Assembly: GCA_014905825.1 (NCBI GenBank) | Contig: JACGCN010000019.1 | Coordinates: 434,001-498,000 of the forward strand | Length of the DNA: 64,000 bases | DNA from: Lyophyllum atratum | Lineage: Eukaryota; Basidiomycota; Agaricomycetes; Agaricales; Lyophyllaceae | Direction: 5' to 3' | Shown: piece after piece, positions 6,851-22,317 of the stretch | Position numbering within the stretch: position 1 is the stretch's first letter | How the letters are laid out: each line of letters begins with the position of its first letter | Translations under genes and position numbers: made by a program | Notes under the pieces: generated by a model | What the model was told of the DNA's origin: nothing | What the model saw: the letters and a program-made list of their open reading frames with translations, nothing else | The model's database searches: none

Positions 6851-7199
6851 CATGTCGCGGTCGGTCTTCACATCCTAGATGATCCTACAACCATCACGGA
6901 GACTCTGCATTATCTGGCAGTGGCGCTATCGGGATTCGGCAGGGTGATCTCCAAGGTCTGTTCCGAGAGCGAAAATAAGCAAATTACGCCGAGCACTTAT
7001 GCTGAATTTCCTGACAAGTCTTACAGGCAGGAGTTACATCCCGAGTCCATAAGTACAAGGATTGAATATTGAGATTACTCCTTAGGCCATATTTCTCAAT
7101 GCTCCTAGCTAACATGCCACCTTCAAGGATTTAAATTGCGATGACCTGATAAAATATGACTTATACTTGGCGCTCAACTCGAAAAACTCGTCTTATGAA
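6851..7199. other. intergenic, ends in the target site of a transposon
   Basis: No gene seen. The last five bases before the terminal inverted repeat (7195-7199, ATGAA) are repeated immediately after the far end of the element at 21629-21633, so they look like its target-site duplication. Confidence 0.5.
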
Positions 7200-8261
7200 T
7201 AGGGGTCTTCAGAGTTGGCGCAACGGCCGTTTCGAAACGGTAATTTCAGTTTTGAAAACAAAGCTTTGAATCGAAACCACTTTGACCGCTCGAAGGCACC
7301 CCGTTGCGATTTGTGATTTAAACTGTTTCAACATCGAGCTGAGCTTGATTTGAGCAACTGAGAGATGGCGGTGACCCAAACTTGAGATAACGCGCTGGGG
7401 GGGGCTTCTTGGACCCGAACCACCACCATCTGGTGGTTCGACACCCGATTCCCACCGTTTTTTCGGTGGGAATTGGCACGAAACGGCCCGAACCGTCTCG
7501 TGACTCCTGACCGAGACTCTGCAAGAATGCAGCAGTCCAAGAACCTTGCCCCCCTCAATGTCGAGGACTAGTAGAGCAGTCTTCGTTACGAGCGATGCCT
7601 AGCTCACAACCACCCATTCGCACTGAGGCCCATTCACCACCCTCTGGGATGAGTGATCTCAACTTTCATCATTTGGTAATCGACATTTCTAAAGCCCCCG
7701 AAAAGTCCCTGAGCGATCGATTAAGAGACCTTGCCGTCGCAGTCATCGCTGAGTCCTCCTGCCCAAATACAGTCCGTGTGTCTTATTCCTTTACTTGATG
7801 CCTAACACGTATGTACAAGAAGGTTGAAGCAGACCACTAACAGTGTTATATGCTCCCGCAAGCCTCAAGTATTGCCAGGAGCAGCACGTGTTTTATCAAC
7901 TAAGTGTTCACTTAATCACACTTCAAACTTTGTTTATACTTTGTACGACATCCGGAAACCCACTACCAACATTCTCTCTGCGTTGATCCCGCCCGCATCT
8001 GTAATGGAAACACCTCCCCCGAACGGAGCTTCTCCACATACCTTCTAGGCTCAAAGTCCCTCTTCCCTTTGGAATGTTAAGCCAGGGGAGAGGGTTTTTG
8101 GTGTCATAATGTCCCTGCTTCGATTGTGCGGTTAGCCGACCGCTCCAAAGCCAAGCAAGGGCTATACGTAACACACGTGGAGAAAATTTTCTATTCAGTA
8201 CTGTATAAAAACCCCATGAATAATTCACATACCCAACAGCCCAACTTCTACGCTCTCTATC

Positions 8262-8793
8262 ATGTTCTACTTCACTCCCCCCGCCAATTCCCAACGTCGC
8301 CCACGGGCCACCCCTTGGCAATAGTACCAGCCCTTTGGAAGTACGAGTCGGCAAGCATTCGTACCTCCCGTCATGGAACACGTACCAGTTCCACTGGAGG
8401 GCCCAGATGTTGGGAAGACCCAGCGAAAAAAATAGCATCGCTGTGGGCGATTATGTCCACATCCTCTCCCAATTCTCCTCCTCAGCCTTCGATCTTGATG
8501 ACATTGCAGATCTGCATGGCCTAATCACGGGTTTCAGCATCACCAACACATTCTACACTATATCTTTCACCGTCAAGACAGAGGAAGTGGGGGACGTGGT
8601 GCTTCAAGTCCCATATCATTATGCCTCTCTTAGCTCCGAGGACTTCCACACGCATGTCTCCAGGATAAACTCCCCGCATTACGTGAACGATGCTGCATAT
8701 TATGAGATGGTGGAACGCATTTTTGGGCATAATGGCAGGGTGAGGAAAGAAGCCCGCCCCCATGAAGTACCTGCCAAGCGTGTCAGATACTAG
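8262..8793 (+). pseudogene. extra 5' ORF of the LINE, one frameshift, unknown function
   Basis: A frame of about 152 codons ends at 8793 (core YVHILSQFSSSAFDLDD, FHTHVSRINSPHYVND, ending PAKRVRY). The nearest ATG with a TATA-like box upstream (TGTATAAAAA near 8203) is at 8262 (MFYFTPPANSQRRPRAT) but in another frame; joining needs a one-base shift in the CCCC run near 8311-8314. It lies inside the LINE target-site duplications and upstream of ORF1, so it is either an additional LINE ORF or host sequence carried by the LINE. I do not recognise the family. Confidence 0.45.
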
Positions 8794-10257
8794 AGCAGAG
8801 TTCCACACAGTTTGCCAACCGTACCCTCCAGGCTCCTCTCCTATACGTGAGTTCGGGTTACTCCTCCCCAACCACACCGACACTTACAGAAGGCGCTGAC
8901 TCCCTTTTAGAACTGTCTCTCCTTGAACAATCACTCCTTGATCCTTTTGATAAGCTTACGTACATATACACGCGTCGCTCTCCTTGTCCCTGCTATATCT
9001 TTGTTTGTCTTAACCCCCCCGGGGTAATAAACTCCTTTAATCTATCCGCTCACACGGTCCCATGCTCCCTCCCCACTATCATCGTATTCTGGATCAGAGT
9101 GCAACGTCATCCCCTCGTCAACTGAACATACTCAACGTCATTATGCGAGGGTCACTATAGAAGGCTGCGATGGTCGGGAATTAGGACCCTGCAAACGAGT
9201 CCTATCATCAACCTTTCAACGATAAGTACGTCTTCGCCACGTCACTAAGGATACCTTGGCTGAAAAGTGGTACGCGCCCTCCCTCACAAAGTAGTACCTT
9301 TGCGCGTGGGCCTGTATGAGAAAATTGACGAGTTAATCGTGAGCTCTCCCTCCACCAAACTCGCCCTTCCCCTTTCACCTCTTCCAGTAGGCTCAGCATT
9401 TCCTAACCCGCTCTGGATATCTATCAACGGACACATTTATATGGTGGCGTTATCCCCAATATTGCAGTATAAATGATTGGCTTAATCTCACCGTCATTAC
9501 AGATATCTCTCGTCATTGACCATTCCATCTCAAACTCTGCATCATCATATCCCCAGAACATCGCGAACCTGCCGTCTGCGGAAAAGCGGCCCGTCTCGCC
9601 TCAAAAGTTTAAAAGGACGGTCATGTCACCGTCAAAACTCAGGTATATCGAGCCATCCAAGCACATCATCACATATGTCTAACATCGAAGTTAACTCCCC
9701 AATCTCCCCTTTACCACAATCCCCACAGGCTCCGTCAACGGACCTTACCTTGACATCCGTCCCGTGGCCACCCACTAGCTTCGCTGCCGCTCTACAGCAA
9801 CCCTCCAACAAGAGAGCAGCAGAAGCCAGCCCCCAAAAAGAGCCGGGTGAGATCATCTTTAATGCGTCTAAAAGGAATACTGCGACACGTTTACCTCGAG
9901 CTCCGGCGGCCCAAGTGACTGAAATGCCAGCATCTGGCGAGGATGGGAGGGACCCCGCAGCTTTTCCTCCTTTATTACATTCCGCCCACCCCTTCCATCC
10001 CACGGAAGACAGCATGGACCAGGATCAGGCTACTCGTTTCTCTCTCGTACCAGCGTTCGTGCGTGCGCGCACATTGTCGCGAGAAGCGATCCCTACCCGT
10101 TCTGATAACATCGCTGTCTCCGACTCTGAGTCAGATTATTTGCCTCCATCCCCCTTGGACGACATCACTGTCGCTGCGCTGGATCGCATGGAGGCTGAAG
10201 AAAGTCTTCGTCGTACTGCTGGAACTGCGGAACACACACCCACCACTAGGGAACAGC

Positions 10258-10398
10258 CTGGGTAACCCATGGGTGTCGGAAGCCTAACCCACACCCATAC
10301 CCACAGGTACCCATACCCAGGCGATGGGTACGGGTAATTGGTGGGTCTGCAGTGGGTACGTCGTGGGTATGACCCACGGTGGGTAACCCATGGGTTAG
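10258..10398. repeat. left subterminal GGGTA/TACCC repeat cluster of the hAT
   Basis: Many short copies of GGGTAACCCATGGGT- and ACCCATACCC-like words in both orientations sit just inside the left end. They are mirrored by a similar cluster near the right end (13776-13884). Subterminal repeats of this kind are the usual binding sites for hAT transposases; that role is inferred here. Confidence 0.7.
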
Positions 10399-10442
10399 CC
10401 AACGAGAATACAGTCCAGAGGTAAAAAAAATGTATTTAGTAG

Positions 10443-13400
10443 TTATTCTATGTCATCCCAACCGTCTGGCATAAGTACATCACCCTCCGAATCACCCTCT
10501 TCCTCAGGGACCTCGGGAAGTGTGACAACCTTCGAGATGTCCTCATCATGAATCAGTCCCATGAGACTCCATCGGCCGAGACAAAGGAGCGCACGAGTCG
10601 TTTGTGCGGCCATACGGTTTCGGACATGCGTGAGCTGGAGACGGCCAAGACTAAATACACGTTCGACGTCAACAGAGGTAGCTATGGGCATTGCTAAGCG
10701 AAAGATAACTCAGTAAATAAAAGTGAGGCCGCACCTGGGATGGTCAGGTAATCCAATGCCATTTGAGAGAGGCCGGGATACATCGCTTGTCGCTCGATCC
10801 ACCAAGAAATGACGTCCTCAACGGCCTCTACGTCAGTGCTCAGGTAACGGTCCAGCTCATTACGAAGTTCGGCGGGTTTGGGCGGGGCCAGTGCAGCTAG
10901 ATTGTCGAACATATTCTGCATGCCACTTGTGAGAAGCAACGATAAGAATAGAAAGGAGTGGCTCACCTCTGATCTTTTCTGAGGTTCTTTTGGACGACGC
11001 TGCATCTCTTCAACGTCTAGTTGATAGTTCTGCTCAAATGCATCTCGAGTGATGTCTTCTGCCTCCTTGATCCATCTGTCCTCCCAGCCGTTGTTCTTGA
11101 AGTAGGTAAGTTTATGACGAGGGTGTAGAACTGCAGCAAAGATTCAAATATGTCAACATTTCCGCGAGTTAAGTGCAGTCAATGATGAAAATACATACCC
11201 ATCGCGATGCGGTAGAGCTCAGAGTCGTCAGTCTTGGTGTAATAGCGGTTGATAGTCTTCTTTGCCAAGTTTAGAGCAACACGGATTGCGGGCTCGTAGG
11301 TTTTGTCGAGGCTGTCCGTTGTGAACTTCTGGTCAATAAGATCCATTGCCGGGATCACAGTAGCGAGATTCGGAGTCGAACGAGAAAAGAATGTCGTCGC
11401 ATGTTTGAGGATCTACATGCAATGGGACGTGCGCGTGAAACCCGACTCTGCGAGGAGGGACATTATCAAGACGTCATGTGATGTAACATACCTCAAGCAC
11501 GTCACAAAGTTGTGACGCAATCTTCCACTCCTCGCCACTGAGCTCGTACTGCCTCAACCCGTTCGCTCTGCTGCTGGTTATGGCATCCACCGCTTTCCGA
11601 TAACGCAAGGCCATCTGAAGCATATCAAAGGTCGAGTTCCACCGGGTCGAGACATCCCTCGGAATGAGGCGAAACATCAACTTCGGGTCTCCCAGTCCTA
11701 CCACGATACGACGCCATTCCGGGAGCAGAATTGTGGATGAATGGATGATGGCATAGGCGAGTTTCCGGATCTATGGGTGGGATGTGGTTAGATTGCATCA
11801 AGGTGAGCATAATCCATTGTACCTTGACGAGAACAAGCCTAACGGGTCGGACACTCTCTGATAGCTTCTCCGCCTCCTCCTCAGTCAAAAGCGCAACTTC
11901 GTCCACCCATCCTTCGACATTATCGTTCTCCACGTCACCCTCTGCATTGGTTCGCATGTCCAGGTCCTCAAGATCGATACCGTCTGCCAAATCCAGCAAG
12001 TCCTTCTCGGCATCATCAAGTGCGTCCTTCGCCTTCTTTTTCGGAACATCGAATTGTCGAAGAAGACTCTTTGCGACTAACTTTACGATGTGGGCGAAGC
12101 AGCGGGTCCGGCGAGCCGCTCCAGGGAAATAGAGGAGAAGTTTAGCGAGTTCGTCGATCATCGTATCATTGGAGCTTGCATTGTCGCATGTAATGCTAAG
12201 GACCTATCAGAGCGAGTGAGTCGTGATTAATAGATTTTTTATGATGCTCTGTGCTCACCTTCCCACTAATGCCAAAGTCATCAAGAATCTTTGCAAACGC
12301 CGCCGCCAAAACGATCCCGGAATGAGACTTTGAGAGAGGGTTTAGATGATTGACTTGGACATTTTGTTGGGTGAGTACTTGCCTGAGCAACCTCGACAAT
12401 GTCCAATAGCAAGCTGATCGGTTTTCCGTTGTGTACCAGATGAACAGTGACAGCAACATATGGACGATGGTTGGGTGACGTCCAAGCGTCGGTTGCGAAG
12501 CTCAGTGCACCGTCGCACTCCTTCATCGTTGTTAAGGTATGTCAGTATTCAATATCGAGAAACCATGAACTTACCTTCAACATCTTTGCTATCCGATTTC
12601 TAGCCTTCGCAAATACTGTCTTGACATCCCGAGAAACGGTCGTCGGATGCGGAACATAGTAGGTAGGTCTCCCCGTCTTCAGCAGGCAGTTCAGGCCGCG
12701 GTCTTTCACAATCGCAAATGGCCTATTGCTTTCGCTCACCCACCGAACAATTTCGGCTCTAGTAAAGTTTTCGGGTCAGCTTCGCAGGTGCAGTGGGATT
12801 GTGACGGTACCTTGTCTCGGTTCGCGTGTGAGGACGGTGAGAGTAAGTGACATTTGCTTTGTCTTTTCTTGCAAATGAGGCCGTGATTGACCCATTTGCA
12901 CGATAGCCACCGACGACCTTTGTGCGGGCCTCCTGAATATTTATAGCCTCGTCAGCGGCATGCAGCACGTCCTCGCCCCAGCATTTCTTCACATGCTTGC
13001 GCATGTTACCCGTGGATTGTGCGTCCTTCATATCTAGGTACCTGACAATGCGCTGCGTACACCCCTTTCCAGTGCAACGAAATACGTGGCACTTCCGGCC
13101 GCCGCGGTACTCGATCACAGGATCTGGCTTGAAGAAGGCATAGACTGTCGTATGCCACCCGTTTTGCATTCGCTCTGGTGATGGGTAAGTTATCGGTTTA
13201 ACTTTCAAATATAAATACACACTAAGCTCCTGCTCGTCAGATTCTTCTTCAAGTCCTTGGGCTGTGGCTACGGGATCAGATGACGAAGAAGACCCTGAGG
13301 AAGATGATGAACGGCTGCTCAGCTCGCGCGAGCCCCGGACCTGCCCCGCCGCATCAACCTCCTCGACATCTGTCACGCCATGTGCTGCGAGTTCGGCTTC

Positions 13401-13643
13401 ATCTTCCTCTTCGGATAGGACAGTGGCTCGGCGGCTTTTCTTCCGAGGTTTGACTGAGGTAGATGGTGCACCTGAGCTTACGGAACTTGCTCCAGAGGTG
13501 TCGCCGGTGCTCGATTTGGAGGATTTCCGTTTAAGGACACCTTTGACTTTCTGTACGACAGCCTTGGCCTTATCTGAGATCGTTCGCTTGCGTTTGCCGC
13601 TTACGATGTTCCTTGGATCATCAGCCTCGAGGCGGCGGCCCAT
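10443..13643 (-). CDS. hAT family transposase, BED zinc finger plus dimerisation domain
   Basis: Catalyses cut-and-paste transposition of the surrounding element. Ten exons on the minus strand: 12811-13643, 12575-12758, 12383-12520, 12259-12327, 11823-12203, 11492-11770, 11199-11412, 10967-11130, 10735-10915, 10443-10681. They give 2682 nt, an exact 893-residue frame. The N-terminus is basic and Ser-rich. A BED-type finger follows near residues 180-235 (CHVFRCTGKGCTQ, STGNMRKHVKKCWG). Then come the RNase-H-like core blocks (ALSFATDAWTSPNHRPYVAV, ITCDNASSNDTMI, RCFAHIVKLVAKS, DVSTRWNSTFDML) and the C-terminal hAT dimerisation motif (SVDVERVFSLGRL, RNRMAAQTT). One intron (12328-12382) is GC-AG. 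No lesion was seen. Confidence 0.92.
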
Positions 13644-13775
13644 GCTTGACAGGATTGATGGAGATCACCTGTTTGTGGACTTTTGAGATTAGATTGGTGC
13701 AAAAGCCACCGTCTTTGATTATGTAAAGGACTGTACAGTACATAAGATACATGATGACGTAGGTTCTGAGAGGTA

Positions 13776-13884
13776 AACCCACTGCTGGGTACGGGTATGG
13801 GTATGGGTATGGGATGTCGGACACATACCCATACCCAGACAACCCGTGGGTCTGTACCCGCGCGGGTTACCCATACCCAGGCTA
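13776..13884. repeat. right subterminal GGGTATGGGTA repeat cluster of the hAT
   Basis: Tandem GGGTATG words followed by ACCCATACCC words lie just inside the right end of the element, partner to the cluster at 10258-10398. Confidence 0.7.
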
Positions 13885-13982
13885 TTCCCTACCCACCACC
13901 AGAGGGAGTCAGACTTTGTACAGGAAAGGCAAATCTGCATCCGCGATCCCCGCTGGATTGCATTTCAAAAAGACATTGCGAG

Positions 13983-14032
13983 GTGAGCTCTATTCGTGTC
14001 TCCCAAAGACTTAATTCTAATGATTGGCATAG
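13983..14032 (+). other. intron-like segment inside LINE ORF1
   Basis: Begins GTGAGC, contains TCTAATG about 16 nt before the end, and ends CATAG; removing these 50 nt rejoins the two halves of ORF1 in frame (…LRG/A, then AKTPVVTSHNLLDHD). Either it is a real spliceosomal intron or an indel-bearing spacer that imitates one. Confidence 0.55.
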
Positions 14033-15288
14033 CTAAAACTCCGGTAGTTACCTCCCACAACCTACTGGACCACGACATAGCCATGGCGGATGCCTCCCAG
14101 GGCTCTCCCAGCACGAGGTCCACATCCGTGACTGCCGCTCCCGGAGGTCCGACAAATGGACCCGCTATCCAGCTCACCACCACGTCTGCTTTTGCAGAAC
14201 CGTACTTTCTCAGGCCTGGTCGCTCCGCCACGATCGAGGACGGGGTGATGGTCCTCAGCGAAGGTGGAGAACCGATCCTAAGGTATACCGCCAAGCCATC
14301 GACAGGCTTTCCTCGTATCGATTTAGGAGCACCCCCCCTGCAGAACATTACCAGGGACCTGGCTCAGAAATGGTCAGAGCTACCCCCGCCGAAACTACTA
14401 ATGTGATCTTTCAATGCACATTTCGACCCTAATCCTCAAGAAGCGGTTCACAGAGCGGAGGACTTAATCGCGCTCGCCTGCGGGGCAGGTGCTCAAAACG
14501 TGATTGTTAGCCCTCCCACCCAGGCCACCTACGACCCTTTCCGCTTTCCCTCCCCTTTTTCCTTCTTAGTGTCCGGCATCTCACAGTCTGCAGCCGACGA
14601 GCTCCTCGACCTACACATTCTGAGTACGGACAAAGCCTCCCTCATTTTCGACCCATTTGTCCCTCGGAACCCACGCCACCTAATTACCATCCGAGGCCTT
14701 ACCTTCCGTAACACAACCGAAGCCGCTGTCGAAGTCGCAGACATTGTCCGCCGGAGGCTGGTAGCCACCCCAGAAATCGCTTCCCACATCCACGACCACT
14801 TGATGATCGCTGACGCTGGTGCGGTAGCGACGGCCTATGCCTCGATACAGGCAACAAGCATTGAGGCGGCGCTTCCCAAAGCTCAGGGAGGAAAGCAATT
14901 GCTATGGAACATTGAATGGGATCCACCTCAGGTCAAACTCACGAACTACTTCAAGCTCGTTCACCTAGTCCAAGATGTTAAATTTCCCACTACAGTACGC
15001 GGTACGGGTCTCCCCTTGGTTAGCGATTTGGTTTTCCGATGCGTCGGATGCAAGGGCATATCACACCCTACACCCCTTTGCCCTCTCCCCGATATACCGG
15101 GCTGGCTAGGACCTAGAAAGGCCCCAGACGAGGACGATGATCTCGCAATTGATGCCTTTAATAGACCCAAGACAAATGGTGCAAATGGAGGGGTGAAAGG
15201 GAAGGATCCGATTCGAGGAGGCCGCGAGGGTGGGAAGTTTAGAGGTGGCCGTGGTGGTAATCGCGGTAGGGGGTCCAGTAGGACTTAG

Positions 15289-15812
15289 AATGTAACGCCC
15301 ACTTCCCCTCGTATAGCATGTACCTACTATCGCCCTTTCTCGTTGAGTATGCTTGTATGCAATATACCTCTCTGAGCTCATGCCATCCGTGTCCCCATCG
15401 CGTGGGCCTCATTAAAAGGTCGGAATGACTCCAACACGAACTCCCGTAGGATCACTCTTTAAGTGAGGTGCTAGACACTCCAGTCTGAGATGGAGTAGTC
15501 CTGGCTGCCGTTCAAACTTAGCTTTGTTGTAATGTAGAGGCCCCAATAGGCTGAATTTACTGGCCTAAGGGTACAGGTAAGCCTAGGTGGGGCACGCCAA
15601 TGGAGGGCAGAAAACGGAGGCTTATACAAATTAAGCGACAATCCCGTGCAGCAGTCCTGCTTAAACCGACGTTGAGGGGTATGCCGGCTCAGACGGTATG
15701 CCCCGAACCGAAGGTAATTGTCAACCGCCGTAGGCCTGGGTCAAGCCTACCTCCCGTACAAGTTGGTTGTCTTCTCGGGTGAGTCTTCACAACTGCTTCA
15801 ATACTAACTTCT
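15289..15812 (+). other. inter-ORF region of the LINE with an intron-like element
   Basis: No convincing frame links ORF1 to ORF2 here. At 15779-15825 a 47-nt stretch has GTGAGT at its start, the branch-point consensus TACTAAC, and CTCAG at its end. The ATG at 15813 lies inside it. If it is spliced, ORF2 would start differently from the longest open frame. Confidence 0.5.
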
Positions 15813-18800
15813 ATGCCTTCCTCAGGTGTCAATATCGGTCAAGGTTCGGGCCCTCGCGAGCTTGGAGGAGCATCCGGGCTAGCCGTCGCTCGTAACTTCG
15901 ATGAAGAGCTTGAGAGGTTTGGTGACGGGTCTCAAGGAGGCGGAAGTACAACTTTTCAAGTACAACCGGCCAACGGCGTCTTGATTGATGCAGGCCACCA
16001 TGTTGGTAGCCACCCCATGACTTGGGGAATCCGCTCCAACGAGCGGGAGATAGCCCAGGGAGAGGCTATATCTCAGCAACGCATGCGGTTAACTGCTGGG
16101 GGGAATTTCACGTCAGCTGACACGCTACAGAATTCGAGTTCACGAACACGACACACCTGCAAACTTAACACCAAGGCGGCGATTAGGATTGCATCCTTGA
16201 ATATGAGGGGTTATCGATCTGCGGGAAACAATCAGCAAGATTCCAAATGGTTACATATCAATCAATTAGTAAGGGAGAAACGTATAGGCATTTTACTGGT
16301 ACAGGAAACTCATTTAACTGAGGAAAGAAAAACGAACATCGAGTCTCTATTTGGCAAGAGACTTCAACTCCATATTTCTATGGACCCGGACAACCCCTCC
16401 GCGAAAGGAGGAGTAGCTGTCATATTAAACAAGTCCCTAACCAACACCCACGACGTCAAGATTTTGGAAGTGGTGCCAGGACGGGCGATGCTGATTCACA
16501 CGAACTGGCACCTGAGTGAAAAGTTGTCCATACTAGTAGTATATGCCCCGAATGTAACGTGCACAGATGGACGGACGAATGCGGCCTTTTGGAAGGACCT
16601 TCTGATGTTTTTCGATGCCCGTCCTAACCTGAAAGTCGATGTGTTAACCGGTGATTTTAACATGGTTGAGGACCTGATTGACAGACTACCGATGCGTTCA
16701 GACCCCCTTGCAGCCACGGACGCTTTGAAGAACTTCACAAACGCGTTAGGTCTCGTAGACGGATGGAGGGAGACGCACCCATCATTGAAAGCGTACACGC
16801 TACTTCACAGTTCAAATGGAACTCAGTCCAGGATCGATAGGATCTATGTCTCAATGAATATAATGAAGACTGCCAGAGAATGGAATATCGAACCAACGGG
16901 AGTCCCCAATGCGGACCATAACTTAGTTTCCGTCCAGATCGCCCACCAAGATGCTCCAGAGATAGGCAAAGGGCGATGGTCGATCCCAGAACATGTGTTG
17001 AAAGACAAGACATTCCAGACATTTGCCAAAGAATGTGGTAAGAAGGCGATACTAGAACTGGAGGGGTTGGCCGGACGACCATGGCGGGAAGATAGCAATG
17101 CTCAGCTGATCTATAATTCCTGGAAGGTGAAAGTACTTGAATTTGCAAAAGAAAGGGATAAACTAATAATCCCTCTAATCAAAGCCAAGATAAGGGAACT
17201 CGAGAAAACCCTGGCCGAAGTTAATAATGACCTCTCCCAACAAGAACAGTTGAGGAGCCAGAAATCTGCGGAGTTGACCGCCAAAATCCGCTCTCTGGAA
17301 AAGCAAAGGCACCTAAATGCTAGGAAACATACGGCCATTAGGAATCGTTTAGAAGGAGAAATGATTTGCAAGTACTGGACACAGGCTAATAAAGCTGCAA
17401 AACCCCGGGACCTCATTTACGCCCTAAGAAAGAATGTTACTCCAGTTAGTGCCGAAGTGACGGTAGAGGGCCCCCAGGAACGCTCACCTTGCCCACCCCC
17501 GTTTGTGTATGAAAAAGACTCAAGACGGATGGCGGAGGTAGGAAGGGACTACCACAACAATCTGCAAACAAAGGATATAGACCCGAACACTAGCTTGCGC
17601 CAAAGTAAAATCGAGCATGTCCTTTCCCGTACTCCTACAACTCTGTCGGCAACGCAGAGAGAATCCCTGAACGCCCTGGTGACAAAAGAAGAGATAGCGG
17701 AAGCCCTGCGCTCCTCTAAAAACGCTACGGCTGCAGGGCTAGACGGAGCTACCTACGAATTTTGGAAATCCTTGAATAACCGCTACATTGAGGACGAGCG
17801 AAATGAGAAACCGTCCTTCGATGTACTCGCCCTCTTAACAGCTGCACTTAGGGATATCCAAAGTCACGGGATGATCGCGTCGACCAAATTTGCTGAAGGT
17901 TGGATGTGCCCCATTTACAAGAAAGGTGAGTGCTCGGACATCGCAAACTATAGACCCATTACCTGCCTGAACACTGATTACAAACTGTTCACAAAAGCCC
18001 TGGCAACCCGACTGGCAGGAGTGATAACTTCCCTAGTCCACCCAAACCAAGCGGGTTTTATCCCTGGTCGCCGCATTACGGACCAAACGAAACTAATTTG
18101 CATGATGCTTCACTATGCTGAAGCGACTGAACAAAATGGCTTGATTGTTTCCCTTGATCAGGAAAAAGCCTACGATAAGATTGATCACGACTACCTGTGG
18201 AAAACCTTGGAAGCTTTCGGTATTCCTGAGGTCTTTATACACTCCGTTAAGACCCTATATGCCAACGCTGACTCACAGATAATGATTAATGGCTTTCTTA
18301 GCTCGCCATGGAAAGTGACGAGAGGTGTTCGGCAGGGAGACCCCCTGTCATGCCTCCTTTTTGACCTCGCGATTGAACCTTTAGCGGTCTCACTGAGAAA
18401 CTCCACGTTGAAGGGTTTTAGGATTCTGGGTGTAGAAGAGAAACTGATAGCTAATCTCTTTGCAGATGATACCACCACCTTTTTGTCGGAGGAAGATGAC
18501 TTCTCGAATCTACAATCTATTTTGAACGAATGGTGCATTGCGTCGACCGCGAAATTTAATGTGCAAAAGACAGAGATCATACCCGTTGGTGAACAATCTT
18601 TCCATATGAGGGTAATTGAATCCAGGAGAACTGCCGATGAAGTAGCCCCAATCCCAGAAGGCCTCCACATCGCTATCGAAAGTGAGGCGGTTCGCATACT
18701 TGGGGCTTGGTTTGGGAACAAAGTAAATAAGGAAGAACCGTGGGATAGAACCATTAAGAAAATTGAAGAGTGCCTTGAATGGTGGGAAAAGGGCCACCCC

Positions 18801-21032
18801 ACGATGGAAGGTCGTAAACTGGTAGTCCAGATGATGGTTGGAGGGATGACCCAATACCTATCGCAAGTGCAAGGAATGCCGAAGACCATAGAGAAGAAGC
18901 TTTGCAGAAGAATTCGTCAGTTTGTGTGGCACGATAAGAGCTCAAGAATAAAAGAAGACCAACTATACATGCCGATAGAGCAGGGGGGAAGGGCGTTGCT
19001 AGATATAGGAGCCAGAAATGAGGCGATAGCAGTCATGTGATTGAAATCATACCTTGATCTAGGCCCGAACCGTCCTTTGTGGGCATCGGTTGCTGACGCC
19101 CTGTTTGCACTGAAAACCCCCTTGTCCGAAGGTAAAGTCGATCCGAAAGTAAGATTGAATATCTTCCTTCAATCATGGAAGTCCAGAGCTACGGAGAAGT
19201 CTGGAATCTGCCCTGACTTACTACAATTACTGACAACCGCTAGAAAGTACGGGGTAAGACCGGAAGGCATAGCCTTCTCAAAGGACATTGTGCAACAACG
19301 GCCCATATGGTACCATAGCGATGCCGATCCGAAGATTCGTCGCCACGCGCATGGTAGGACCGCTGTATGCCTACGAGATAAACACGGAGTACGGACGGTA
19401 GGTGATGCCGAAAAATGGGCTATTAGACTAACCGATAGTTCCCACCGAGTGGATCCCTCTTGTGAATGCCCCAGTTGCATGCAGGTTGAAGAGGATGTTG
19501 GATGCCTTCACCCGCATGACTGCTGTGAAAAGGCCAAACAACTCCTCCAATTCCTTCCCCCAAAATGGAATCCCACCACAGCTCCGAATGAAGAGACCAG
19601 AGTGCCAGGGGATTCAAATGACTCGGAATGGATTGTATTCCAGAGAGGCCTGGTGACCTCGGGTCCTTTAGCAGATATTTTCAGAATCTTCACCTCAGGA
19701 CGAACGGTAGGAGGATTACCTACCTTGTCTCCACCAACCAACAGTGACCGGGAACTGTGCATAAACAATGGCGATGATGATGCACAGGCAGGAGCTGGCG
19801 TCTTCTGTGAAGCTGACCATCCGTTGAACAGGAGTATCAAAGTCCCAGCGGCATTTGTCCAATCTAACCAATCAGCGGAGATGCTTGCGTTAAAAGAAGC
19901 GGTGGAGAGGGCTCCCACTTCGAATGCCCTGTGTCTGGGACTGGACTCTAGATACGTGATTAAACATGTGACAGAAAGTCTAATTGAGCATGAAGACTTA
20001 GGCTATATTGGTATTGAGAACGAAACCCTTGCGAGACTAGCGGTGGCTAGGTTGAGAAGTAGGGGGACGGTGACGAAACTGAAATGGGTGAAAGGTCACG
20101 CGGGCCATGCGAGGAACAGTGGCGCGGACACTTTGGCAGGGGAAGCAGTGGTTATGGCTGCACCCACAGACCTTGACCTAACAATTGATCCCCTTTTGAC
20201 GGTAACAGGAGTAAAGCTTTCAAAGATATCCCAATCTCTCGCGTATAAAGCCATACGTGCCGCTAAAATGAGGATGACACCTTCAGTAAGGACGCGGACT
20301 GTTAGGAACCTGGAGTCAATTAAACTTGAGATGAAAAAGAATTGTGACGCCCGACCAACCTCTGCGACGATCTGGAAGAAAATTAGAAACAAAGATTTCT
20401 TGAGACAGGCGAGATACTGGTTATAGATGTCAATACATGATGCATATTGGGTAGGTTCACACTGGCTGAGACCAAGTATGGACCCAGAGCTCCAGAGGCG
20501 TGCAATATGTGAACATGACGGTGAATTAGAATCGATGGAGCATATTCTTACGAAATGCACGTCGCCGGGCCAACATGAGGTCTGGCAGCAGGCAGGAGAG
20601 CTTTGGCAACGCCACGGTGAGGGCATATGGCAGAAGCCCTCTCTCGGTGAGATTTTAGGGTCACCTCTTATGCAAGTGCGGAGCGCTGAAGGTAGTCCAG
20701 GACCTGGCGGTGTGAGACTCCGTCGCATACTGATTGTTGAGTCAGCGTATTTAATTTGGAAATTGAGATGCGCTAGGATTTGTGAGTTTGACAACAGCTC
20801 ATTCACCAGCCTGGAAGTGGGAAACCGCTGGGCTAAAGTTATCAATGAAAGGTTTGACCTAGATCGGCAGACGACCGATAAGAAATATGGAAAGAAGGCC
20901 CTTTCGAGGAGCCTAGTCAAACAGACCTGGGAAAGGGTCATCCTGGATAGAGACAAGCTCCCGGCAGAATGGCTGGAAGTACCTGGGGTTTTAGTGGGTA
21001 GGGCCCTGGCAGTGCGGCAGGGTATGGGGTGA
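15813..21032 (+). pseudogene. LINE ORF2: endonuclease, reverse transcriptase, RNase H; two stops
   Basis: One continuous frame of about 1740 codons broken only by TGA at 19038-19040 and TAG at 20424-20426. The APE-type endonuclease occupies roughly residues 125-345 (RIASLNMRGY, LLVQETHL, VLTGDFNMV, SRIDRIYVS, NADHNLV). Reverse transcriptase follows (ATAAGLDGATYEFW, NYRPITCLNTDYK, QAGFIPGR, VSLDQEKAYDKIDH, RGVRQGDPLS, LFADDTT with the catalytic ADD). RNase H lies near residues 1310-1430 (QSAEMLALKEA, LGLDSRYVI, KWVKGHAGH, GADTLAGEA). A terminal CCHC motif is ICEHDGELESMEHILTKC. This domain order is typical of the Tad1 clade. Both stops could come from C-to-T changes. Confidence 0.92.
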
Positions 21033-21628
21033 ACCGCATATGCTAAGGGCAGAGTCCCACACTTAGAGTGCGTAAAGCATTTCCTCAGTGGTGAAATGAT
21101 CATGATTAAAGTATATGGTTAATTGTGAACTTGGGACGGGGTTTAGATCCCCTGTCACTAAAAGCGAGCACGAGTAAGGCGATATTAGCGTCAAGCTTTG
21201 TGCTGCCCGTAAGGGTAACGCTACACCAAAAAAAAAAAAAAAAAAAAAAAAGAGATAACGCGCTGATTGACTGATAAGGAAATGTCAATTTATCTTGCCC
21301 TTCACAACTATTCTGCGGGATCCCGGAGATGCCTCGTCCACAAAATGTCAACAGCAGATGAACGCGCTTCTTTCGAGTGAACGTAGCGCGTTGTGCGACG
21401 GAAAATACGAAGTTACCAAGTATCTCACCCACGTCCACTTCGGGCATCTCCGACTGATAATGAAGCTCCGTTCGAAGCCGCAACAGCAGGCAGCAGCATG
21501 CTGAAAACCAAAGTGATGTGGTTTCGATTTTGTGACTTGCCGTTGCAACTTTTTTGAAACGCTCGAAATCTTTTTCTTTTTAAACAGCCGTTTCAAAACG
21601 GCCGTTGCGCCAACTCTGAAGACCCCTA

Positions 21629-22317
21629 ATGAATTGCAGTCAGCTGCGGGACTTGCGCATAGTTGAATGGAGACAGCGAGTGCCCATGCGGAATTGCTTC
21701 CCTTTCTGATGTTGTATGTTGCTGAGAATACTACGGGTTCTGGAGTCCGGCAATTTGACACTGAATCTACTGGCATAAAGCTGCTAAACGGCGTTGCAGA
21801 TGTCTTCGCCACTAGGTGGATTCGCAGCTTCATGAGATCGCATGGATAGCAGGAGGTTTGTACAGCTTAAGCTCCGTGGCGGAAGATGGAGGATTTATTA
21901 TTCGCTAGCGACAGCTCAGTGCTGGTGTCAAGTTTCACTTACTCGCGAAGTGAAGCCTTAGGGTCCCGAGTGAAAATAGAAATCGCAATCTTGTATGAAA
22001 GCCACATACATATCAACCGCGACATTTCTAATCATTCTGATTCATACACGAAATCGACAGGGGATCTTAGAAAAAGAAAAGAAAAAATCACGAAGGGGTG
22101 AGTTTATAGAGGATTCCGTTCATGAGGGGCATCAGGATTGAATGGAGGAGGAGAAGATCCGTCGCGTAAGATCGACCGGGCTTGAAAATCTGCTAGATCC
22201 ACGCGTCCGCGTGTATCCCTTCCACGCATGCGGAGGTTCAAGTCCGTCTGAACTTCTTTACCCACAGGTGACATGTCCAAGATGCGACGCAAATCCCTTA
22301 TGCCAATGACGCCACCA
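21629..22317. other. intergenic, no gene seen
   Basis: Separates the nested transposons from the SRD5A pseudogene. Open frames on the minus strand here continue from the MITE and have no domain. Nothing else is supported. Confidence 0.4.

Follow-up and report, generated by a model that had tools for sequence, protein, structure and literature searches.

The window analyzed here is a stretch of 64,000 nucleotides from the mushroom Lyophyllum atratum (contig JACGCN010000019.1, positions 434,001 to 498,000). Its features are listed in Table 1. Three transposons of three classes lie one inside the other. A PIF/Harbinger-type MITE (559 bp after subtraction of the LINE) was entered by a 10.2-kb LINE, which was later entered by a hAT transposon that is still intact. 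The LINE has an upstream reading frame (ORFA), an ORF1 that is divided by a putative intron, and an ORF2.

Table 1. Features of the nested transposons in the window (TSD, target-site duplication).
Feature	Coordinates	Strand	Remarks
MITE left TSD copy, AAT	7198–7200		3-bp duplication in all copies readable at both ends (8/10)
MITE left terminal inverted repeat (AGGGGTCTTCAGAGTTGGCGC...)	7201–7240	+	arms match 98% over 41 bp
LINE left TSD, GAGATAACGCGCTG	7384–7397		
LINE	7398–21251	+	ends common to other copies; poly(A) 21228–21251
Conserved multi-branched RNA fold (predicted), LINE 5′ end	7398–7554	+	fold z = −9.5
ORFA, extra upstream ORF (174 aa in C71)	8262–8793	+	window copy frameshifted close to its start when compared with C71
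ORF1 exon 1, first part	9675–10246	+	continues at 13900–13982 past the hAT
hAT left TSD, CCCACCAC	10239–10246		
hAT transposon	10247–13891	−	predicted transposase of 897 aa
hAT right TSD, CCCACCAC	13892–13899		
Putative spliceosomal intron 1	13983–14032	+	GTGAGC...CTAAT...CATAG, 50 nt
ORF1 exon 2	14033–15288	+	CCHC knuckle (by eye), RG-rich tail
ORF2 leader, conserved, non-coding	about 15550–15825	+	alignment of 5 copies
Putative intron 2	15779–15825	+	GTGAGT...TACTAAC...CAG, within ORF2 leader
ORF2: endonuclease, reverse transcriptase, RNase H	15826–21032	+	stops at 19038 and 20424 in window copy, absent in C71
LINE right TSD, GAGATAACGCGCTG	21252–21265		
MITE right terminal inverted repeat	21588–21627	−	arm match
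MITE right TSD copy, AAT	21628–21630		

The nest and the order of insertion

The borders of the hAT and the LINE are exact to the base, as the initial annotation had claimed. The hAT is flanked by an 8-bp duplication and the LINE by a 14-bp duplication. The poly-A end assigned to the LINE is borne out by a run of 24 A. The outer border had been misread. The 5-bp ATGAA that was taken for the MITE duplication recurs at both ends because the old target read ATGAATGAA, and the true duplication is the 3-bp AAT. ATGAA was rejected as a target-site duplication on account of the 3-bp duplications of the other copies. In a survey by eye of 10 MITE copies including that of the window, all eight copies with both ends readable had a 3-bp duplication (ATT 4, AAT 3, GTT 1), and for the other two (L041 and L042) no left end could be located. 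The inverted repeats extend inward from 7201 and 21627.

The genome (64.8 Mb, 151 contigs) was searched for empty sites, and those found support the order that had been proposed: MITE first, LINE second, and hAT last. The LINE copy C71 is uninterrupted at the hAT site and holds CCCACCAC only once; the hAT is therefore younger than the LINE. MITE copies without a LINE run uninterrupted across the LINE site, so the LINE is younger than the MITE. The LINE target GAGATAACGCGCTG is single-copy in these LINE-free MITEs, and L034 and L037 are identical at 80/80 bases across the insertion junction. Seven of the nine other MITE copies align end to end to the 559-bp sequence (88–99% identity), and L042 and L041 align over 3–541 and 48–559. 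The stops that had been assigned to the LINE are present, one in ORF1 (14404) and two in ORF2; C71 is open at all three positions. The hAT gene reads as intact. LINE copies with other ends had been named beforehand as evidence against the nest, as had a related locus with the same interior and other flanks. Neither was found: the other LINE copies share their start and end bases and differ in their flanks. The exception is C57 (L071), which starts a few bases short and has 14 extra bases between its TSD and the slightly shortened 5′ end.

Repeats are prone to misassembly, and tandem units are seemingly present elsewhere in this genome; faulty assembly or the segmental duplication of a single locus might have produced the nest. 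However, each element has a clean duplication of its own, and the related copies elsewhere differ in flanks and duplications, which makes such an origin hardly credible. We regard the nesting and the order MITE, LINE, hAT as practically certain.

The MITE probably derives from a 3.8-kb PIF/Harbinger element (C1:452386-456230), which has the same ends and the duplication ATT. Two exon pieces of this element match the DDE_Tnp_4 profile at its start and at its end (E 0.031 and 0.002, both below the cut-off), and the third exon piece showed no match to this profile. The inverted repeats and duplication length are like those of PIF/Harbinger elements, the transposase domain may be so too, and the 3-bp duplication typical of this group was found in 8/10 MITE copies, the other two being unreadable. 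The usual target of PIF/Harbinger elements is TWA, whereas the duplications here are ATT, AAT, and GTT, and thus mostly AWT.

The hAT yields a frame of 897 aa without a stop once nine introns, picked by eye and including one GC-AG intron, are removed from its minus strand. The predicted transposase matches PF05699 (hAT dimerisation, E 7.1e-16). This domain and the 8-bp duplication identify the element as a hAT; it shares its terminal inverted repeats, duplication length, and transposase domain with known hATs. The only full-length copy found in the genome is that of the window; the second-best match has 70% identity and covers part of the length. The hAT ends (10247–10400 and 13780–13891) appear by eye to be rich in TGGGTA/TACCCA repeats, perhaps transposase-binding sites. 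At C46 1010153–1080479 there are four matches about 22 kb apart; in each, some 4 kb separate a hAT-like fragment from a Harbinger end, an arrangement that resembles tandem units.

The LINE family and its reading frames

The LINE of the window measures 10,201 bp without the hAT and one CCCACCAC. Its nearest copy is C71 (96–97% identity), which measures 10,831 bp with a MITE of its own included, and C1 measures about 11.27 kb. ORF2 matches PF03372 (E 2.1e-7), PF00078 (E 3e-36), and PF00075 (RNase H, E 2.2e-14). All five copies examined end in poly(A), and their TSDs vary in length (window 14 bp, C71 at least 15 bp, C1 14 bp, C28 16 bp, C57 14 bp). Together with the endonuclease and reverse transcriptase of ORF2, these are the marks of a LINE. 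Its reverse transcriptase was found at nine or more places in the genome (12 rows, E up to 1e-10), so the family, which has three ORFs, looks small, nine being a lower bound. In C71, ORF2 is open over 1697 aa (including some residues of a preceding insert), and ORF1 exon 2 is open over 433 aa.

The 5′ part of ORF2 in the C71 LINE (L063/L073/L002) harbours a hAT-type MITE (about 565 bp, 8-bp duplication CCGACGAG). C62 has a pair of distant LINE copies at about 449430–467434, with a spacing of about 11,648 bp (measured at ORF1, the reverse transcriptase, and the 3′ end). This distance is near one LINE length, and the pair may reflect either tandem duplication or two insertions.

Tad1-like is presumably the clade name for fungal LINEs with an APE endonuclease, reverse transcriptase, and RNase H such as this one. 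The domain order, poly(A), and 14–16-bp target duplications are alike. The length of 10.2–11.3 kb, the upstream ORF, the putative ORF1 intron, and the 5′ RNA fold, all read in the present LINE family, may set it apart. Of 7991 candidates scored, 1418 are relatives of the ORF2 protein (E up to 0.001). Those with names among the best 120 of the 1418 are from mushrooms and bracket fungi.

ORFA is kept in C71, C1, C28, and C57. Its dN/dS of 0.11–0.42 (5/6 pairs computable) indicates purifying selection. It matched eight rows on six contigs of its own genome, and a protein search for it in other species gave two matches, of which the named one is from L. atratum. No domain match was obtained in Pfam and NCBIfam. 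The structure model has a pLDDT of 59 and its best PDB match an E of 0.15, values that at most hint at a small beta-barrel.

A putative intron in ORF1

A short segment (lengths 50, 50, 53, 54, and 59 nt) divides ORF1 at an identical position in all five close copies (window, C71, C1, C28, and C57). These are five of the eight ORF1 matches in the genome, and the three distant ones (C141 and two in C62) lie outside this count. Five copies are few, and the window and C71 are close kin. The segment starts with GTGAG in four copies and with GTAAC in C1. When 150 nt before and 600 nt after the segment are read unsplit, every frame has a stop. With the segment removed, a stop-free frame results in 4/5 copies; the window retains the TGA at 14404–14406, which is absent from C71, C1, C28, and C57. 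The spliced ORF1 would encode 636, 639, 628, and 630 aa in C71, C1, C28, and C57, the two exons meeting at residues 218, 224, 212, and 214.

A strict splice pattern (donor, branch site, acceptor, and frame) was found in three of the four lineages (C71, C28, and C57). It is absent in C1, whose signals are weaker (GTAACC and CTGAC). The pattern, which was composed after the sequences were known, was run on C71, C1, C28, and C57 (the window reads like C71), and 24, 19, 33, and 8 of 3000 shuffles (about 0.3–1.1%) satisfied it over the four lineages. GT..AG plus frame is a weak test because 1891–2400 of 3000 shuffles reach it. The identity between lineages is 53–69% in the segment versus 66–81% in the nearby exon, a modest contrast measured on pairwise alignments, a method that favours short stretches.

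The dN/dS was 0.13–0.15 for exon 2 (4/6 pairs computable) and 0.32–0.37 for exon 1 (3/6 pairs computable). The dS of exon 2 was 2.1–2.2 in three distant pairs, beyond estimation in two, and 0.69 between C28 and C57. Silent sites between most lineages are therefore near saturation.

Relatives of the ORF1 protein are few (7 among 7989 scored). Two of the seven are deposited L. atratum models (P0003 and P0004) that splice at the segment and may be purely computational. P0003 also skips a piece around the stop of the window and is therefore a fitted model. A Termitomyces relative (31% identity) was deposited as a single protein of 637 aa, near the 628–639 aa of the spliced ORF1.

Spliceosomal introns are usually absent from LINE ORFs, which is the usual state rather than a strict definition, and intron loss is the usual hallmark of RNA-mediated copying. 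Here, the putative intron occurs in 5/5 close copies. In keeping with the usual intronless state of LINEs, ORF1 might instead consist of two separately translated ORFs (about 220 and 400 aa), with the 50–59 nt as an intercistronic spacer. In all four lineages, a methionine does lie a short way past the segment (at residue 18 beyond the junction in C71 and C1). However, the residues preceding this methionine are alike (D-x-D-[IV]-x-M), and the reading beyond the donor is unlike between copies by eye. The strict splice signals of three lineages, each with a chance of about 1% or less, and the single 637-aa protein of Termitomyces also make two separate ORFs unlikely.

Programmed frameshifting or read-through could likewise join the halves of ORF1, and in the window, C71, C1, and C57 the length of the segment is not divisible by 3. 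The segment of C28 (54 nt) leaves the frame unchanged yet contains a stop; one recoding event therefore cannot serve all copies. No common slippery site was seen by eye in the alignment of the five copies, and recoding is very improbable. On the basis of its position and signals, we consider that the segment is probably a real spliceosomal intron that has been kept through retrotransposition.

The ORF2 leader may hold a second intron, for which we have less confidence than for intron 1. The leader is strongly conserved and is called non-coding because indels shift the frame, and the pattern GTGAGT...ACTAA[CT]...AG occurs in the leader of all five copies. The frame test does not apply to this intron because the leader is non-coding, and the intron would measure only 32 or 64 nt in C141. 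A Lyophyllum shimeji model (P0010) joins ORF1 to ORF2; it may be computational and was not relied on.

Retention of the putative intron and the 5′ RNA fold

All five copies bear a TSD of their own and a poly(A) end, as independent insertions do, so the segment was present in the sense RNA that was copied. It follows from this anatomy that the RNA used in target-primed reverse transcription contained the putative intron. Most likely, the ORF1 protein would be made from spliced RNA and reverse transcription would start from unspliced RNA. The best overall explanation, to which we assign a probability of roughly 0.75, is the nest described above together with a LINE for which unspliced RNA would be the template of copying and spliced RNA the source of the ORF1 protein. 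Cis-preference is known from other LINEs. The ORF2 protein may bind the unspliced RNA that encodes it, and we speculate, at somewhat less than even odds, that this preference is the reason for intron keeping.

Nesting as such is ordinary, and it is the LINE that is unusual if the intron is real, a point that the initial annotation had missed. Drosophila copia and retroviruses copy unspliced genomic RNA and use spliced RNA for expression; these are LTR elements, whereas the present LINE is target-primed. Among the matches listed from the open-access literature, in the portions of text available, there was no LINE with a conserved ORF1 intron. Penelope-like elements are retroelements with introns, like the putative intron-bearing LINE here. 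One paper reports spliceosomal introns in them and a mechanism said to permit intron retention; they have a GIY-YIG endonuclease, and an antisense template is one proposal (PMC3846280). Compared with the elements as described there, the LINE of the window has an APE-type endonuclease, and its poly(A) shows a sense RNA template. If the present reading is true, an intron-keeping LINE would show that unspliced RNA can serve, by rule, as the template of target-primed reverse transcription. Such a LINE would also be relevant to defences such as human HUSH, which tells intronless DNA from host genes (PMC8770142). Intron keeping might then help the LINE to pass as a host gene.

The first 160 nt of the LINE are predicted to fold at −90 kcal/mol, and 0/200 shuffles folded as well. 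RNAalifold gave 39 pairs on seven sequences (4 changed on both sides) and 45 pairs on six sequences (2 changed on both sides), and both alignments had an unfavourable (positive) covariation term. In a helix-by-helix hand reading, 230/236 cells pair and six positions are changed on both sides; the strands were hand-picked and some helices counted in part, a selection that favours structure. This reading took the window, C71, C1, C28, C57, and C96; it excluded the outer G-C stem as well as C2, in which one arm is incomplete. C96 and C2 folded alone did not adopt the fold as a whole.

As in R2 and L1Tc, the fold might act as a self-cleaving ribozyme and release the LINE RNA from upstream transcripts. 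Its place at the extreme 5′ end of the LINE, its strong folding, and its conservation would fit such a role. HDV-like ribozymes are located at the 5′ end in other LINEs according to two reports, and the position here parallels theirs (PMC3774820, PMC4035085). On the other hand, an Rfam search of window positions 7000–22000 gave no family up to E = 2, HDV-like ribozyme models included, and a known ribozyme at the LINE 5′ end was rejected on this ground. The predicted fold is nested, and the HDV double pseudoknot could not be traced on it by eye. A ribozyme is therefore improbable.

The 5′ fold may help to mark or package the unspliced RNA, although we hold this packaging role to be doubtful. 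Tentatively, we can picture a LINE lineage with a retrovirus-like division of its RNA, in which spliced RNA would serve as the ORF1 mRNA and unspliced RNA as the genome, and the 5′ fold would mark the copy to be retrotransposed. If so, this division would have kept introns for the time that silent sites took to saturate.

The pattern of the last arm of the fold (up to 3 mismatches) occurs at seven sites in the genome, versus 0 for the control. Six of them are at LINE 5′ ends, of which that in C2 is decayed, and one is an orphan in C96. At C96:102548-102702 (L067), only the first 155 nt or so of the LINE are present, and the printed sequence that follows is not LINE.
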